DNA of 42,909 bases from a virus. The position numbers and the translations under genes are program-made. Location of the stretch: the IMG/VR virus record IMGVR_UViG_3300042923_000363, positions 1-42,909 of that record; one strand, 5' to 3'. The notes beneath the pieces were generated by a model. That model saw only the letters and a list, made by a program, of their open reading frames with translations, was not told the origin of the DNA and did not search any database. Of this stretch, positions 8,168 to 37,250 are shown piece by piece; the stretch's first letter is position 1; each line of letters opens with the position of its first letter.

Positions 8168-8557
8168 TTAATACCACCCCAGACGTACAGACCTTGAAGT
8201 TAAATCAGTTGCAGCGAGTCCTTTAGGACTAGCAGGTGGCCTGTGGGACAGTTCCAGCAGATAAGATCCTTTTAGCTTCCAAATCATACTGGTGACGCCT
8301 AATGGATACTCAACAACCTGCTGGCGGTTTGATGCCTCGGTCGTCGCTGATCGGTTCTTGTAAGATGCATCAGCGAGCATGATAACAGCCGTGTCAAAAG
8401 TGGAATTGTTATCCCAAAAATCGACCATATTGTCATCGGTACCCACACTCGATTTTATTCGATCAATGGCGTCATTCAAAAACGTCGTTAATAAGGCATC
8501 ATGACCGCTGTAATCAATACTCAAAGCCGCTTTAAGCGAATCAAGAGTGACTGTCAA
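8168..8557 (-). CDS. Head-tail connector (gp6-like) with an N-terminal FN3 half-domain at its C-terminus
   Basis: 129 residues starting at TTG 8557, which overlaps the previous stop (TTTTGA) and has AGGTGATGG six bases upstream. Residues 1-100 (LKAALSIDYSGHDALLTTFLNDAIDRIKSS, DTAVIMLADASYKNRS) are the helical gp6-like head-tail connector. The last about 25 residues (PPASPKGLAATDLTSRSVRL then GWY-stop) look like strands A and B of a fibronectin type III domain and stop abruptly after the conserved Trp. The missing C-G strands match the product of the gene just upstream (8554-8757). The two pieces lie in reversed order, so simple readthrough cannot join them. Confidence 0.85.
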   Translation of the reverse strand: MTVTLDSLKAALSIDYSGHDALLTTFLNDAIDRIKSSVGTDDNMVDFWDNNSTFDTAVIMLADASYKNRSATTEASNRQQVVEYPLGVTSMIWKLKGSYLLELSHRPPASPKGLAATDLTSRSVRLGWY

Positions 8558-8757
8558 AATCCATCACCTACCAACGGATCTGTTAGTGGAAAATTAACCG
8601 CCAGCGGATCGCTTAATGGCGACTCACCGAGATTGTTCTGAGCAGACACCTGATACTGATGCGTTGACCCAGGCTGCACGTTTTCAACGGCGAAAACTGG
8701 ATCCTTCAAACCGGACTTAATCTTAACCCCGTCCTGGTAGATGTTATAAGTGTTCAT
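8554..8757 (-). CDS. Small FN3 half-domain protein (strands C-G)
   Basis: 67 residues, ATG at 8757 with GAGGTGG four bases upstream. The sequence (YNIYQDGVKIKSGL, PGSTHQYQVSAQNNLGESPL, SDPLAV) is the C-terminal two-thirds of a fibronectin type III domain without its first two strands. It lies between the capsid gene and the connector gene. The connector ends in the complementary N-terminal strands, so the two proteins could complete one fold between them on the head or neck. That is inference; the split itself is visible in the translations. Confidence 0.8.
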   Translation of the reverse strand: MNTYNIYQDGVKIKSGLKDPVFAVENVQPGSTHQYQVSAQNNLGESPLSDPLAVNFPLTDPLVGDGF

Positions 8758-31751: not shown

Positions 31752-32387
31752 TTGGAAACATTTGGTGATAAGCTAAAATCTTTAAGAATGGGCAGAAAGT
31801 TAAGCCTTGACGGTATGGTAGACCAACTTAAAGAAAAGTATGAAACTAACATTAGTAAATCGATGCTTTCTAGGTACGAAAACAATAAAGCGGACGTTAC
31901 TCTTGATAATGTTAGAATGCTCACCGACTTTTTTAATGTTCCAGATGATTATTTTGTAAAAGACAATATCGTTCATGAGGAACAAACTCCATATGAGGAG
32001 GAATCACCTCTTGTCAATTTACCTATTGTGGGACGTATCTCTTGCGGTAATGGCATCATTGCGATAGAGGATGTAGAAGGATATGAGCCAGCTCCTAAGT
32101 CTTGGTTAAATGGTGGAACCTATTTCTATCTACGTGCAAAAGGAAACAGCATGACCGGCGCTCGCATCAATGACGGAGACCTCCTCCTCATCCGTCAGCA
32201 AGAAGATGTGGAAGATGGCGAAATAGCTGCTGTATACGTAGACGGAGAAGCTAAATTAAAGAGGGTTTTCAAACGTGACGGAAGCCTAATTCTCCAATCT
32301 GAAAATACAAATTACCCACCGCAGATTATAAAAAGTGGTGACGTTAAAATCATCGGTAAGTTGGAGAAGTCAGTAATCGCATTTTAA
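31752..32387 (+). CDS. CI-like phage repressor (XRE HTH + S24 peptidase)
   Basis: 211 residues from TTG 31752 (AGGGAGAG eight bases upstream). The HTH is at residues 5-70 (KLKSLRMGRKLSLDGMVDQL, NISKSMLSRYENNKADVTLD). The S24 LexA-like domain, about 95-208, carries GNSMTGARINDGD (catalytic Ser) and GEAKLKRVF (Lys). The scissile position reads VGRISCGNGI, so Cys-Gly replaces the usual Ala-Gly. RecA-stimulated self-cleavage probably triggers induction, perhaps with altered rate. It is divergent from the Cro-like gene with operators between them, and followed by integrase. Confidence 0.92.
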   Translation: METFGDKLKSLRMGRKLSLDGMVDQLKEKYETNISKSMLSRYENNKADVTLDNVRMLTDFFNVPDDYFVKDNIVHEEQTPYEEESPLVNLPIVGRISCGNGIIAIEDVEGYEPAPKSWLNGGTYFYLRAKGNSMTGARINDGDLLLIRQQEDVEDGEIAAVYVDGEAKLKRVFKRDGSLILQSENTNYPPQIIKSGDVKIIGKLEKSVIAF

Positions 32388-32431: not shown

Positions 32432-32443
32432 GAACATACATTC
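32432..32443. promoter_or_regulatory. SOS (LexA)-box-like sequence before integrase
   Basis: GAACATACATTC differs by one base from GAAC-RNRY-GTTC, the LexA/DinR box of Bacillota. It lies 22 bases upstream of the integrase start codon. Weak on its own, but it is one of three such sequences in this lysogeny region. Confidence 0.4.
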
Positions 32444-32465: not shown

Positions 32466-33632
32466 ATGGCATCATATCAATTTGTTACACCAACTAAAGT
32501 AAAACTTTATGTAGAGCGAGGGTACCGCGACGATGGATCGAGAGCGCGTAAAACTAAAACGGTAACCATAAAGACACCGAATAGTGAACGTGCCGCCCAG
32601 CGAGCACTAGACGCATTTATTGCAGAGGCATCTAAATTTGATGACAAGGACTTAAAAAGTGTTCGCTTCGCGACCTTTTCACAAGGTATGTGGTGGGAAT
32701 CGCACGCAAGCAAGCTGCACATGAAGACACGTCAGGAGTATAAACGCAAATTGCCTCGCCTTATTGCTGGATTCGGCAAGATGAAAATGGCTTCCATACG
32801 CCCTTACCACATTGTGAATTTTTTTAGAGCAGAACAAGAAGCCGGCAGAAGTGATCTCCGTGGTCTATACACTTTGCTCGGCAGTATCTTTTCACGCGCC
32901 GAAAAATGGGAAATCATAAAAGATAACCCTGTTACCCACGTTGACCGTCCGACAGTCAATTCATACAAACGGCCAAGAAAATTTTATACGAGAGAGCAAA
33001 TGCGTGAAGCCTTATATAAACTCGATCACAATCGCCGTGTATCCTACAAGAATAGGATCAGAATCAAACTCGGTTTGTTAATGGGATTACGCGAAGGCGA
33101 AATTGCCGGAATTTTAAAAAACAAAGTAGACTTTAATAGACACGGGATTTGGATTGATCGGCAGATGCAATGGGATCGCGAAAATAAACGGTTTCGCCTT
33201 AATCCGATAAAAAACGAAAAGCCGCGTTTTGCATTCTTTCCTAGAAAACTCGAGGAGGAACTTCGTGATTATATCGAACGCCACGAGAAACAAATGGATC
33301 TACTGGGCGACGCAAAGTATAAGTTTATCGATCCTGATATTTCGGATGAGCCCCTCGATCTTTTATTTACTTCGAGCATCGGCCGACCTATACACGTAGA
33401 AACTATTTCCACAGCTTGGCGCGACTTTTGTTCAAAAAATGGACTTCCTGAACTTAATTTTCATGGACTGCGCCATAGTTGTTTATCGTACATGCTTAAC
33501 CGCGGTGCCCCAATCAAAGACGTTCAGGAACAGGCTGGGCATAGTAATGCAAAAATAACGCTCAACACCTACGGCCACGGAGAACTTGAAAGCCGAGCTG
33601 AGAGCGTTAATTTGATGGACGAGCTTCTTTAA
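32466..33632 (+). CDS. int: Tyrosine integrase
   Basis: 388 residues from ATG 32466 (GGAGGTG six bases upstream; the GTG at 32457 overlaps it). N-terminal part with arm-binding and SAM-like core-binding domains (FATFSQGMWWESHASKLHMK; RPYHIVNFFRAEQEAG). Catalytic domain with GLLMGLREGEI (Arg I), LNFHGLRHSCLSYM (His-X-X-Arg), AGHSNAKITLNTYGH (His and Tyr nucleophile). It is followed within eight bases by repeats GTCACTTTTTGGTCACT that probably are its arm sites. Standard phage integrase, complete. Confidence 0.95.
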   Translation: MASYQFVTPTKVKLYVERGYRDDGSRARKTKTVTIKTPNSERAAQRALDAFIAEASKFDDKDLKSVRFATFSQGMWWESHASKLHMKTRQEYKRKLPRLIAGFGKMKMASIRPYHIVNFFRAEQEAGRSDLRGLYTLLGSIFSRAEKWEIIKDNPVTHVDRPTVNSYKRPRKFYTREQMREALYKLDHNRRVSYKNRIRIKLGLLMGLREGEIAGILKNKVDFNRHGIWIDRQMQWDRENKRFRLNPIKNEKPRFAFFPRKLEEELRDYIERHEKQMDLLGDAKYKFIDPDISDEPLDLLFTSSIGRPIHVETISTAWRDFCSKNGLPELNFHGLRHSCLSYMLNRGAPIKDVQEQAGHSNAKITLNTYGHGELESRAESVNLMDELL

Positions 33633-33656: not shown

Positions 33657-33825
33657 GCATTAATTTTAAGCTGAAAACACTTCAAAAAAGGCTTAACAGC
33701 AAGGGGATAAAGCACTTCTGCAAAGATTAATCCCATTTCTGATTTTTAGTAAGACTATGTTATACAAGGTTTGAAAATGCCTGTACTAGTGGGTCTGCGG
33801 CGCTTGAAAGTTTGTTCTAGTTAGA

Positions 33826-33837
33826 GAACGTCCGTTC
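33826..33837. promoter_or_regulatory. SOS-box-like dyad in the attP region
   Basis: GAACGTCCGTTC, extended to AGAACG-TC-CGTTCT, fits GAAC-N4-GTTC with one deviation from RNRY. Another GTTCT half-site lies at 33814, making three alternating half-sites. It could be a LexA site or an integrase/excisionase core-type repeat. Confidence 0.4.
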
Positions 33838-34150: not shown

Positions 34151-34363
34151 ATGGCTCTCCGTAAAGGGAGATGTCGTTTAAGTGATCTACTCAATATTCC
34201 TCAGTCTGAATTTGCGCGAAAGATGGAAGTTACAGAATCAACCGTGTCACACTGGATAACTGGCAAGCAAAAAATGAGTTTGGACAATGCAGTCTTTGCT
34301 GCCAGGCTTCTCCATTGCACAGTTGAAGACTTATATGAGTGGATCGAGTTTAAACGATCGTAG
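34151..34363 (+). CDS. XRE-family HTH regulator (70 aa)
   Basis: ATG 34151 with GAGGAGG upstream. LNIPQSEFARKMEVTESTVS, HWITGKQKMSLDNAVFAARL, LHCTVEDLYEW is a compact Cro/CI-type HTH with no extra domain. It sits in the cassette beside attP, apart from the main switch. It may regulate its neighbours here (the zinc-ribbon gene or the exported protein) or host genes. A GGCGG/CCGCC stem lies just after the stop without a T-run. Confidence 0.8.
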   Translation: MALRKGRCRLSDLLNIPQSEFARKMEVTESTVSHWITGKQKMSLDNAVFAARLLHCTVEDLYEWIEFKRS

Positions 34364-34555: not shown

Positions 34556-35149
34556 ATGAATAAAAAGCTGATCATCATTTTTGGAAGTCTCATTTCTGCG
34601 CTTTTAATTATTATCATCGCCATCTTCGGGTACAATCAGTACCAACAAGTTAAAGCGCATAATGCTAAGGTTGCTGCTCAGAAAAAAGCGGAGGCTGCTA
34701 AGATAGTCAAAGAAAAAACTTTTGACATCGTCTATGAATCATTTGTCCTTGATTCAAAAGATTTAGCAACGGCAGCCGAGGATATTGGCAGTAAATACGT
34801 TGATGTTTGGAATAAGGTAATTTTTGACGGTAGCGTAACAGTAAGCGGCGTAAAATTAACTGATTTTAATGATGCCCTCTCTGCACAATCGTTGGCGTTT
34901 AGTACTCATGGCAACTTAGATAAGATTAGTAAAAAAGAAGATGATGTACGTAACGACTTTAAAGACCTGAAAAGTAATGTTACGGACAAAAATAGAGATA
35001 AATTTAATATTGCCAAATCTGTTTATAATGCATTACTTAAATTTGATAGCTTAGCAACCAGCCCCTCGGGCAGTTTACAAACATACTCGGAGCAATTCAA
35101 TTCTTCGGATACTGATATAGCTGGTAAAATTAGTTCATTAGATCAATAA
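34556..35149 (+). CDS. Membrane-anchored exported protein, candidate lysogenic conversion / superinfection factor
   Basis: 197 residues, ATG 34556. N-terminal MNKKLIIIFGSLISALLIII then IAIFGY is a signal anchor (positive n-region, about 20 hydrophobic residues, no lipobox or clear signal-peptidase site). An A/K-rich helix follows (HNAKVAAQKKAEAAKIVKEK), then a soluble helical domain outside the cell. The gene stands alone with its own promoter and terminator in the region that becomes the prophage end opposite integrase, where conversion and superinfection-exclusion genes cluster. Exclusion is a hypothesis from position and topology. Confidence 0.75.
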   Translation: MNKKLIIIFGSLISALLIIIIAIFGYNQYQQVKAHNAKVAAQKKAEAAKIVKEKTFDIVYESFVLDSKDLATAAEDIGSKYVDVWNKVIFDGSVTVSGVKLTDFNDALSAQSLAFSTHGNLDKISKKEDDVRNDFKDLKSNVTDKNRDKFNIAKSVYNALLKFDSLATSPSGSLQTYSEQFNSSDTDIAGKISSLDQ

Positions 35150-35183
35150 GTTGTGTTATATCCTTTTACATTAAACTGACTGA

Positions 35184-35220
35184 TGCCCATCTATTTACAG
35201 TGGATGGGTATTTTATTTTC
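35184..35220 (+). terminator. Rho-independent terminator of the exported protein gene
   Basis: TGCCCATC ... GATGGGTA, an 8-bp stem (one G-T) with an 11-base loop, then TTTTATTTT, 34 bases after the stop. The T-run abuts the promoter of the next gene. Confidence 0.8.
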
Positions 35221-35223
35221 GGT

Positions 35224-35242
35224 TATAATAGAACAAACGTTC
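35224..35242 (+). promoter_or_regulatory. TATAAT promoter element with a perfect SOS (LexA) box
   Basis: TATAAT (35224-35229) is followed after one base by GAACAAACGTTC (35231-35242). This fits GAAC-RNRY-GTTC, the core of the Bacillota LexA/DinR box, exactly, and extends to AGAAC...GTTCT. The box covers the expected transcription start, so LexA binding would repress and DNA damage would derepress the gene at 35263. The -35 region (TGGATG) is weak. Confidence 0.75.
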
Positions 35243-35262
35243 TTATTTACGAGGTGAAACGT

Positions 35263-35652
35263 ATGGTCAATCTTTATTTTCCTGAATCTGAAATGACCGA
35301 TGATGAGCGAATCATCATAACCAATTATATGTTCCTTCCCTACATCAAACGCGCCTTAGAAGTTGACCGTAAGGCTATATTTGCATCTGGGCTTAAATTT
35401 AAAACCTACTATGTTGAGCAGCTGACTGATGCAATCGATAAGGTGGCAAATGACATACGGATAAATAAGAAACAATTGTTTGACCATAACGTCAGGCTTA
35501 CCCGAAAATCTTGGCTAGAATACGAAGTCTACACACGTGGCCGACTATTTAACTTTTTGTACCATAAGAGCAATGCTGTAGACTGGATAAACTTGCATGT
35601 TAAGGATTACTTTCCACAAGAGTTGGATATAAGTTTGGAACCCCCTATGTAG
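35263..35652 (+). CDS. SOS-controlled hypothetical protein, candidate antirepressor
   Basis: 129 residues from ATG 35263 (GAGGTG six bases upstream). The product begins MVNLYFPESEMTDDERIIIT and continues helical and rich in Tyr, Lys and Asp (YIKRALEVDRKAIFASGLKF, RLTRKSWLEYEVYTRGRLFN). I do not recognise the family. The only regulatory clue is the LexA box at its promoter. Prophage genes under LexA are typically antirepressors (as Tum of phage 186), DNA-damage tolerance or cell-division factors. An antirepressor acting on the CI-like protein is an attractive but unproven reading. A terminator overlaps its stop codon. Confidence 0.8.
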   Translation: MVNLYFPESEMTDDERIIITNYMFLPYIKRALEVDRKAIFASGLKFKTYYVEQLTDAIDKVANDIRINKKQLFDHNVRLTRKSWLEYEVYTRGRLFNFLYHKSNAVDWINLHVKDYFPQELDISLEPPM

Positions 35653-35664
35653 GGGATTTTTTTT
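35642..35664 (+). terminator. Strong terminator overlapping the stop of the SOS gene
   Basis: CCCCT-ATGT-AGGGG stem-loop whose right arm includes the TAG stop, followed after one base by eight T. The stop codon is embedded in the hairpin. Confidence 0.85.
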
Positions 35665-35686: not shown

Positions 35687-35714
35687 TTGACTTATATAAC
35701 ACATGTGTTATAAT
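35687..35714 (+). promoter_or_regulatory. Strong promoter with a perfect 18-bp palindromic operator
   Basis: TTGACT (35687-35692), 16-base spacer, TATAAT (35709-35714). The spacer and -10 contain TATAACACATGTGTTATA (35695-35712), a perfect 18-bp palindrome between the boxes. This is where a dimeric repressor, such as the ribbon-helix-helix-like protein 260 bases downstream or the XRE protein, would block polymerase. It drives the toxin-like peptide. Confidence 0.8.
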
Positions 35715-35738
35715 AAAAACATGGAAGGAGGTGAGAAA

Positions 35739-35855
35739 GTGGTTGGTAAAATAATTGATGAGGTTAAAGACATTGTGATGACGCTGGCAACGATAATCAC
35801 AACCTTCTACCTCATCAAGGAACACCGGAAGCCTCGAAAGAAGCGCCGGAAATGA
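35739..35855 (+). CDS. Toxin-like membrane peptide (38 aa)
   Basis: Read directly: GTG 35739 with GGAGGTG five bases upstream, TGA 35853-35855. An in-frame ATG at 35721 lies at the expected transcription start and would add six residues. KIIDEVKDIVMTLATIITTF, YLIKEHRKPRKKRRK: one short membrane helix and a polybasic tail. The form (strong promoter, very short one-helix peptide, charged C-terminus, hairpin right after the stop) is that of type I toxins or holin-like toxins of Bacillota. An antisense promoter faces it at 35886-35894. Toxicity is untested. Confidence 0.6.
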   Translation: MVGKIIDEVKDIVMTLATIITTFYLIKEHRKPRKKRRK

Positions 35856-36554: not shown

Positions 36555-37250
36555 TTAAAACATCACAGACCAAGTCTTCTGTCCAACAACGCCATCTGCT
36601 ACAAGGTTGTGCCGCTTCTGGTAGGATCTTACTGCCGCTGCTGTCTTAGAACCATACACGCCGTCAGCTTTAAGACCCACGGCGTTCTGAACGCGCTGAA
36701 CGTCTTTACCTTTGCTTCCTACCTGCAGGACGTGTCCTGGATACTTAACCGTGGACACCTTAGACACTACTTTCTTAACAATCTTCTTGACCTTGCTTAC
36801 CGGCTTAGCGTCAAAACGTTCCAAGTCATTCGCTTTGATGGTTGCAATCAGCTTGTCCGCATAGGCTGGATCCGTGGCATAGCCCGCTGCCTGAATCGCG
36901 TTTGCTGCTTTTACATAGTCAGACTGACCAAGTACAGCTTTATATCTGGGCAGCTTGTACAGCACCACAAGGTCAAGAATCGACTCATAATAGGTTGGGT
37001 ACTTGCGGAATTTGGCGACAATCTTGTACCATCCCTTAACAGAGTGCTCTGAGGTGGTCATAGCCACCGACTGACCTCGATAAGCACCTTTGACGCCAAA
37101 TAGGTTATCACCCTTCTCAGCAAGCCCTGACGTGCCCCATGCAGATTCTAAAGCAGCTTGGGCGATAATAATGGACGGTAGCACCTTATTGGCATTACCG
37201 GCTTTCTGTGCATAGCCACTGATTGCCTTGATAAATGAATCTTTACTCAA
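36555..37250 (-). CDS. Endolysin: GH73-type glucosaminidase with peptidoglycan-binding domain
   Basis: 231 residues from TTG 37250 (GAGGAGGGG upstream; no better start). Residues 5-145 are a GH73/FlgJ-like domain: PSIIIAQAALESAWGTSGLA (catalytic Glu), DNLFGVKGAYRGQSV, FRKYPTYYESILD, AAGYATDPAYADKL. A basic Val/Lys linker leads to a PG_binding_1 domain at about 172-231 (LQVGSKGKDVQRVQNAVGLK, DGVYGSKTAAAVRSYQKRHN, DGVVGQKTWSVMF). No signal peptide, so release needs the holin. It cuts beta-1,4 bonds of host peptidoglycan. Confidence 0.93.
   Translation of the reverse strand: MSKDSFIKAISGYAQKAGNANKVLPSIIIAQAALESAWGTSGLAEKGDNLFGVKGAYRGQSVAMTTSEHSVKGWYKIVAKFRKYPTYYESILDLVVLYKLPRYKAVLGQSDYVKAANAIQAAGYATDPAYADKLIATIKANDLERFDAKPVSKVKKIVKKVVSKVSTVKYPGHVLQVGSKGKDVQRVQNAVGLKADGVYGSKTAAAVRSYQKRHNLVADGVVGQKTWSVMF

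Follow-up and report, generated by a model that had tools for sequence, protein, structure and literature searches.

A prophage gene under predicted LexA control belongs to a widespread SOS family associated with translesion polymerases in Bacilli

Background

YolD/YqjX (PF08863) is LexA-controlled and has been proposed as an analogue of UmuD; the YolD fold is an SH3-like barrel (PMC6511836). A third small-subunit variant of the YqjW-type mutasome has been reported under the name Cohnella abietis YhjD (PMC12926913). The PolY2-YqjX mutasome of Gram-positive bacteria is contested: loss of yqjX had little effect, an interaction went undetected, and B. subtilis genetics questions whether PolY2 needs YqjX (PMC13335488). 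The same source links SPbeta-carrying strains with a higher mutation frequency. SPbeta has SOS mutagenesis genes of its own, UvrX-YolD, and LexA binds its yolC promoter in vitro (3.9 nM for the promoter; PMC8270828 Table 1). HumD of phage P1 is described as UmuD'-like and as facilitating SOS mutagenesis (McLenigan 1999, as cited in PMC4713147), which by that citation makes it a phage-borne homologue of a mutasome small subunit without its own polymerase.

We examined a 129-codon gene in 42.9 kb of viral DNA (the whole stretch analysed, hereafter the window). This gene is best explained as a lysogenic-conversion gene, repressed by LexA and situated near one end of a Sporolactobacillus prophage. 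The more interesting result, however, is the family to which its product P0001 belongs: an SOS family that is widespread, lacks a Pfam or NCBIfam model, has ties to translesion polymerases and is carried alone by phages.

Results

The gene and its immediate surroundings comprise the following features.

34556-35149, + strand: preceding gene, probably membrane-anchored, phrog_24226 (unknown function)
35182-35212, + strand: terminator of the upstream gene
35224-35229, + strand: -10 hexamer TATAAT of the gene's promoter
35231-35242, no strand: LexA box GAACAAACGTTC over the expected start point
35251-35256, + strand: Shine-Dalgarno sequence GAGGTG
35263-35652, + strand: 129-aa protein P0001, of the YhjD-domain, polymerase-associated family
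35642-35655, + strand: intrinsic terminator, stem CCCCTATGTAGGGG followed by T8, overlapping the stop codon of the P0001 gene

The initial annotation had placed the box one base past a TATAAT and before a terminator-closed gene of 129 codons, and the coordinates confirm this: the spacer is a single A at 35230, and the gene runs from an ATG at 35263 to a stop codon at 35650-35652. The upstream terminator at 35182-35212 isolates the P0001 gene as its own transcription unit; terminator-like sites in the region numbered 10, compared with 1.4 in shuffles. A -35 hexamer was sought at 16-18 nt from the -10 and was not detected.

We considered whether the box might be a chance match, with the gene being expressed in some other way. 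Exact copies of GAACRNRYGTTC numbered two in the window where 0.21 were expected, and at least two arose in 6 of 100 shuffles of the window, which, like the absence of a -35 element, is what a fortuitous match has in its favor. With one mismatch allowed the window was not enriched (8 vs. 6.1). By itself the exact motif is moderately unlikely, and therefore the case for LexA rests on comparison among homologues. The box sits on the start point, the window 14-mer AGAACAAACGTTCT is identical to an SOS box in the LexA-bound yolC promoter of SPbeta, and homologues with different promoter DNA also carry boxes; against these observations, a chance match is extremely improbable.

Among 62 non-redundant members of the family (<80% identity), 31 had an exact box within the 225-bp promoter window that was scanned, compared with 0 of 62 for a reversed-pattern control, and the remaining promoters mostly had one-mismatch boxes. 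Only 4 exact boxes were found in 246 kb of other flanking DNA. The window gene thus has the properties of an SOS-regulon member, namely a GAACN4GTTC-type box overlapping its promoter and conservation of that box across homologues above the control frequency. All four lexA promoters examined in the Sporolactobacillus group contain an exact GAACN4GTTC. The promoters of three homologues, L003, L004 and L015, have tandem boxes 30-31 bp apart and upstream of the -10 (exact in L003 and L015, with one mismatch in L004), whereas the window promoter has a single box downstream of the -10. The promoter DNA of the window looks unrelated to that of these homologues, and SOS control has thus persisted through promoter exchange. 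The earlier proposal that LexA controls this stand-alone prophage gene is supported by the conservation of the box, the motif of the host lexA promoters and the yolC 14-mer, which together make LexA control of the P0001 gene a well-supported prediction. SPbeta resembles the window phage in having prophage-borne SOS mutagenesis genes behind LexA-bound boxes at its yolC/yolD promoter, one of them identical to the window's (PMC8270828), but SPbeta brings the polymerase itself and the window phage does not.

P0001 matched no family model in Pfam, NCBIfam or PADLOC, and a reading of the gene as a defence gene was rejected. Its one clear PHROG match was to phrog_34234, of unknown function, which was matched by 24 of the 25 phage-borne family members. 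The label of unknown family given at first is therefore accurate with regard to these models, but the protein can be placed in a family linked to Y-family polymerases. Of 120 relatives of S. laevolacticus, 72 gave a profile match to this family, as did 138 of 350 genomes in a sample of the class Bacilli (about 39%); within Sporolactobacillaceae the E-values ran from 1.6e-67 to 1e-30. The closest homologue of P0001 (89% identical) is in S. laevolacticus; homologues in Sporolactobacillus prophage regions are 89% and 72% identical, and one on a viral contig is 68% identical. Homology of the family to YolD was also considered and rejected, as an hhalign profile comparison gave nothing, and a Pfam scan of P0001 found no YolD domain (PF08863).

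On seven Sporolactobacillus chromosomes the gene for a Y-family polymerase of the UvrX/YqjW type ends in an ATGA overlap with a family member, which is, to judge from this overlap, translationally coupled behind the polymerase. An exact SOS box precedes 6 of these 7 loci, and the remaining one (L013) has one-mismatch boxes. Six other sampled genomes instead have YolD in this position behind the orthologous polymerase. Paenibacillaceae have operons in the order PolY-YolD-family (L165-L172) or SOS box-family-PolY-YolD (L174-L177), and 10 Paenibacillaceae genomes encode a protein in which a YolD-like arm is fused to the family domain, its gene overlapping the end of PolY. These fusion proteins match the YolD HMM over residues 7-53 (E down to 8e-9) and the family HMM over the rest of the protein (E 5e-14 to 6e-21); an example of the N-terminal arm is RWESSRMMLPEH. 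Profile E-values establish that P0001 is homologous to the domain behind PolY. We judged linkage by adjacency, fusion and slot exchange; co-occurrence of polymerase and family per genome was not used because the polymerase family is too common and phylogeny confounds the comparison.

The Paenibacillaceae fusions, with the family domain after a YolD-like arm and directly behind PolY, match the architecture reported for Cohnella abietis YhjD (PMC12926913), with which we provisionally equate the family by described architecture and name. Unlike that protein, P0001 is phage-borne, stands alone behind its own LexA box and lacks a YolD-type N-terminal arm of the Cohnella type. The family also resembles YolD/YqjX in being LexA-controlled, in standing behind a polymerase whose orthologue in sister species has YolD there instead, and in adjoining YolD in phages, but sequence homology between the two is absent.

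Many chromosomal members stand alone, each with an SOS box of its own, and a separate role for the domain in the SOS response is therefore possible. An SOS protein that works independently of Y-family polymerases, for example a checkpoint, nucleoid or replication-fork factor that operons merely group with other SOS genes, would also suit the position of the phage copies away from any polymerase. Such a function would not account for the repeated linkage to polymerases in varied arrangements, the translational coupling, or the exchange with YolD and fusion to its arm, and we regard it as unlikely. This independent SOS role and an inhibitory decoy, taken up below, are the main rivals of the reading that P0001 is an accessory polymerase subunit.

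The family occurs at about 26 phage or prophage loci, none of them with a polymerase nearby. Alignment-based scans of IMG/VR detected the phage copies, and besides the window some two dozen IMG/VR contigs encode the family, although not every such locus need be phage-borne since UViG ends may include host flank; the window gene and those of L140, L155 and L156 are internal to their contigs. A single-sequence scan of IMG/VR with P0001 found nothing, and tblastn of P0001 and its Paenibacillus and Bacillus relatives against annotated phage records gave no match. There was no Y-family polymerase next to the window gene, nor within up to 8 kb on each side (often less on one side) of the other phage copies. 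YolD lies immediately upstream of the family gene in 6 phage loci. At nearly all phage loci, SOS boxes are found close to the family gene or to the one preceding it, mostly in a tandem arrangement with a spacing of about 30 bp. In the phage loci inspected the family gene is near lysis genes and often near a recombinase, and on a Paenibacillus phage-like plasmid it occupies the same place, adjoining holin and amidase genes.

Genes for ATP-dependent DNA ligases are also present near the family gene in several prophages (L003, 10721-11683; L137, 692-1534; L005, 1784-2746; L139, 14153-14992; identity confirmed by Pfam for L003 and L137), which suggests a DNA-damage cargo region by the lysis genes. 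At 9517-9896 in L003, a gene opposite the family gene, with which it has its SOS boxes in common, encodes a 66-aa protein consisting only of a LexA DNA-binding domain; next comes a 69-aa protein that is WYL/SH3-like in appearance. The 66-aa protein is possibly a phage-borne competitor for LexA boxes.

In a maximum-likelihood tree P0001 forms a clade with L003, L004 and L015 (100/99), and this clade is sister (99/92) to the 7 polymerase-coupled copies (100/98); the stand-alone chromosomal copies fall apart from both. The phage and coupled copies have in common an N-terminal [YF][FL]PxSE[ML] segment, mostly absent from the stand-alone copies. The short N-terminus of P0001 reads YFPESEMT, and the coupled Sporolactobacillus copies share this segment and likewise have no YolD arm. 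An AlphaFold2 model built from 25 phage or prophage sequences (pLDDT 83) predicts disorder for residues 1-12, helices at 13-41 and 47-74, strands within 77-99 and a helix at 102-116. The predicted fold is thus a helical hairpin, a three-stranded sheet and a helix, in contrast to the SH3-like barrel of YolD (PMC6511836). Foldseek of the model against the PDB and BFVD returned nothing at E<0.001, a sequence search of the PDB gave matches at chance level only, and no solved structural analogue of the model fold was found.

These results also bear on whether the phage copy, with the same family membership and LexA control, is an inhibitor or decoy. An arm-less domain might compete with the resident small subunit, damping host mutagenesis or protecting phage DNA, and a dominant-negative partner could well lack the YolD-type arm and be carried without a polymerase, as P0001 is. 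However, the polymerase-coupled Sporolactobacillus copies are just as arm-less, and a whole YolD beside the gene in 6 phages fits the supply of subunits better than their blocking. We therefore consider a decoy distinctly unlikely.

The wider map of the window includes the following features.

31752-32387, + strand: CI-like repressor (S24) with a Ser/Lys dyad and with Cys-Gly where LexA is cleaved
32466-33632, + strand: tyrosine integrase
33706-33737, no strand: attP core of 32 bp, from identity to an S. laevolacticus gene
33806-33837, no strand: two SOS-like sites, GAAAGTTTGTTC and GAACGTCCGTTC, 20 bp apart, one of them exact
36555-37250, - strand: endolysin (glucosaminidase and peptidoglycan-binding domain)

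All 32 bp of the attP core recur in the 3' part of a Sporolactobacillus laevolacticus gene resembling threonine/serine exporters; because of this match and the 89% homologue in the same species, Sporolactobacillus is the apparent host. A terminal repeat of 127 bp makes the map of the window circular. Since the attP core lies between int and the P0001 gene, the gene would be near one end of the prophage, between attP and the lysis module and adjoining the lysis genes, with CI and int at the other. Its assignment to the same lysogeny region as the repressor therefore holds on the circular map only; integration separates the gene from CI and int by the length of the prophage.

Two looser SOS-like sites had been noted at 32432 and 33826. 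The first does have one mismatch, but the second is an exact GAACN4GTTC. The one-mismatch site, GAACATACATTC at 32432-32443, lies just upstream of the integrase gene, and the same 12-mer also precedes the gene of an integrase with 41% identity in a second genome of the Sporolactobacillus group (L217); LexA may therefore control int as well. A search for relatives of the integrase in IMG/VR found none. The pair at 33806-33837 lies in a non-coding stretch, some 70-100 bp away from the attP core, and no gene that it might control is apparent. Contig C39 of genome G012 has a related integrase next to a LexA-like CI (L201, L217) and, at 8384-8662, a YolD match; this may be a related prophage in which YolD takes the place of the window's gene.

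Other small elements occur near the gene. A small XRE-type HTH protein is encoded at 34151-34363, between attP and the SOS gene and away from the CI/Cro region. At 35687-35855 there is a strong promoter (TTGACT-16-TATAAT, extended -10) overlain by an 18-bp perfect palindrome, TATAACACATGTGTTATA (35695-35712), with a tiny basic/hydrophobic ORF and a G-rich stem downstream; the ORF may encode a small peptide that is toxin-like or regulates its own gene.

The initial annotation had suggested that the gene may encode an antirepressor providing a second, LexA-driven induction route, and had called the CI cleavage site atypical. The cleavage region of CI, NLPIVGRISCGNGII, was compared with that of the host LexA, NIPVIGKVTAGLPIS: the Cys-Gly of CI aligns exactly with the Ala-Gly of LexA, and the catalytic Ser and Lys are present. 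Cys-Gly is also the cleavage site of UmuD and of P22 c2, so ordinary RecA-dependent induction is expected and the site is not atypical. Tum of phage 186 is a precedent for a LexA-controlled antirepressor and, like P0001, the product of a LexA-controlled gene of a temperate phage, but we found no sequence or contextual relation between the two, and the relatives of P0001 are linked to translesion polymerases. No homology to a known antirepressor family was found for P0001 among Pfam, NCBIfam and PADLOC models or through its sole clear PHROG. The window phage is already equipped with an S24 repressor whose cleavage site is normal, CI and the P0001 gene occupy opposite ends of the prophage, and the carrier phages differ in their recombinases and repressors. 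The suggestion is unsupported because the family is mainly chromosomal, kept in cells independently of prophages, and is fused or coupled to polymerases; a Tum-like function is very improbable.

Discussion

We favor, as somewhat probable, the reading that P0001, a stand-alone relative of the small subunit that accompanies UvrX/YqjW-type Y-family polymerases in Gram-positive bacteria, is a LexA-induced accessory subunit acting in trans on a host translesion polymerase. Judging from the box, DNA damage would lead to RecA-stimulated cleavage of LexA and free the P0001 promoter. P0001 may then act in trans on the polymerase that the host itself induces in its SOS response, either alongside or in place of the small subunit already present (YolD or a coupled family member), and the outcome would be altered lesion bypass and mutagenesis, either in the lysogen or on replicating phage DNA. 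That P0001 binds the polymerase, and in which direction it would affect it, we infer. Against the proposal, P0001 is without the YolD-type arm thought to mediate docking to the polymerase, and the contested standing of the PolY2-YqjX mutasome (PMC13335488) also speaks against it.

HumD appears to be the closest functional precedent. P0001 would work like HumD, also being phage-borne without its own polymerase, yet it is not homologous to UmuD or YolD; it comes from an unrelated protein family and host, and its role is a prediction.

A broader proposal is that a LexA-controlled and polymerase-less "mutasome adaptor" module, made up of a YhjD-domain protein with or without YolD, is a recurrent cargo of Bacilli prophages in the interval from attP to the lysis genes, and that this module reprograms the host translesion polymerase in trans. 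This would be a Gram-positive counterpart of HumD from an unrelated and unnamed family, and we hold the proposal to be evenly poised between right and wrong. If it is true, lysogeny can alter the damage-induced mutagenesis of the host without importing a polymerase, and the phage may thereby tune how its host copies over damaged DNA. The existence of a Pol V-like mutasome in Gram-positive bacteria is disputed. The exchange of the family with YolD in one slot, its fusion to the YolD arm, its LexA control across Bacilli and its repeated uptake by phages all bear on that dispute, and the family offers a direct test of it.
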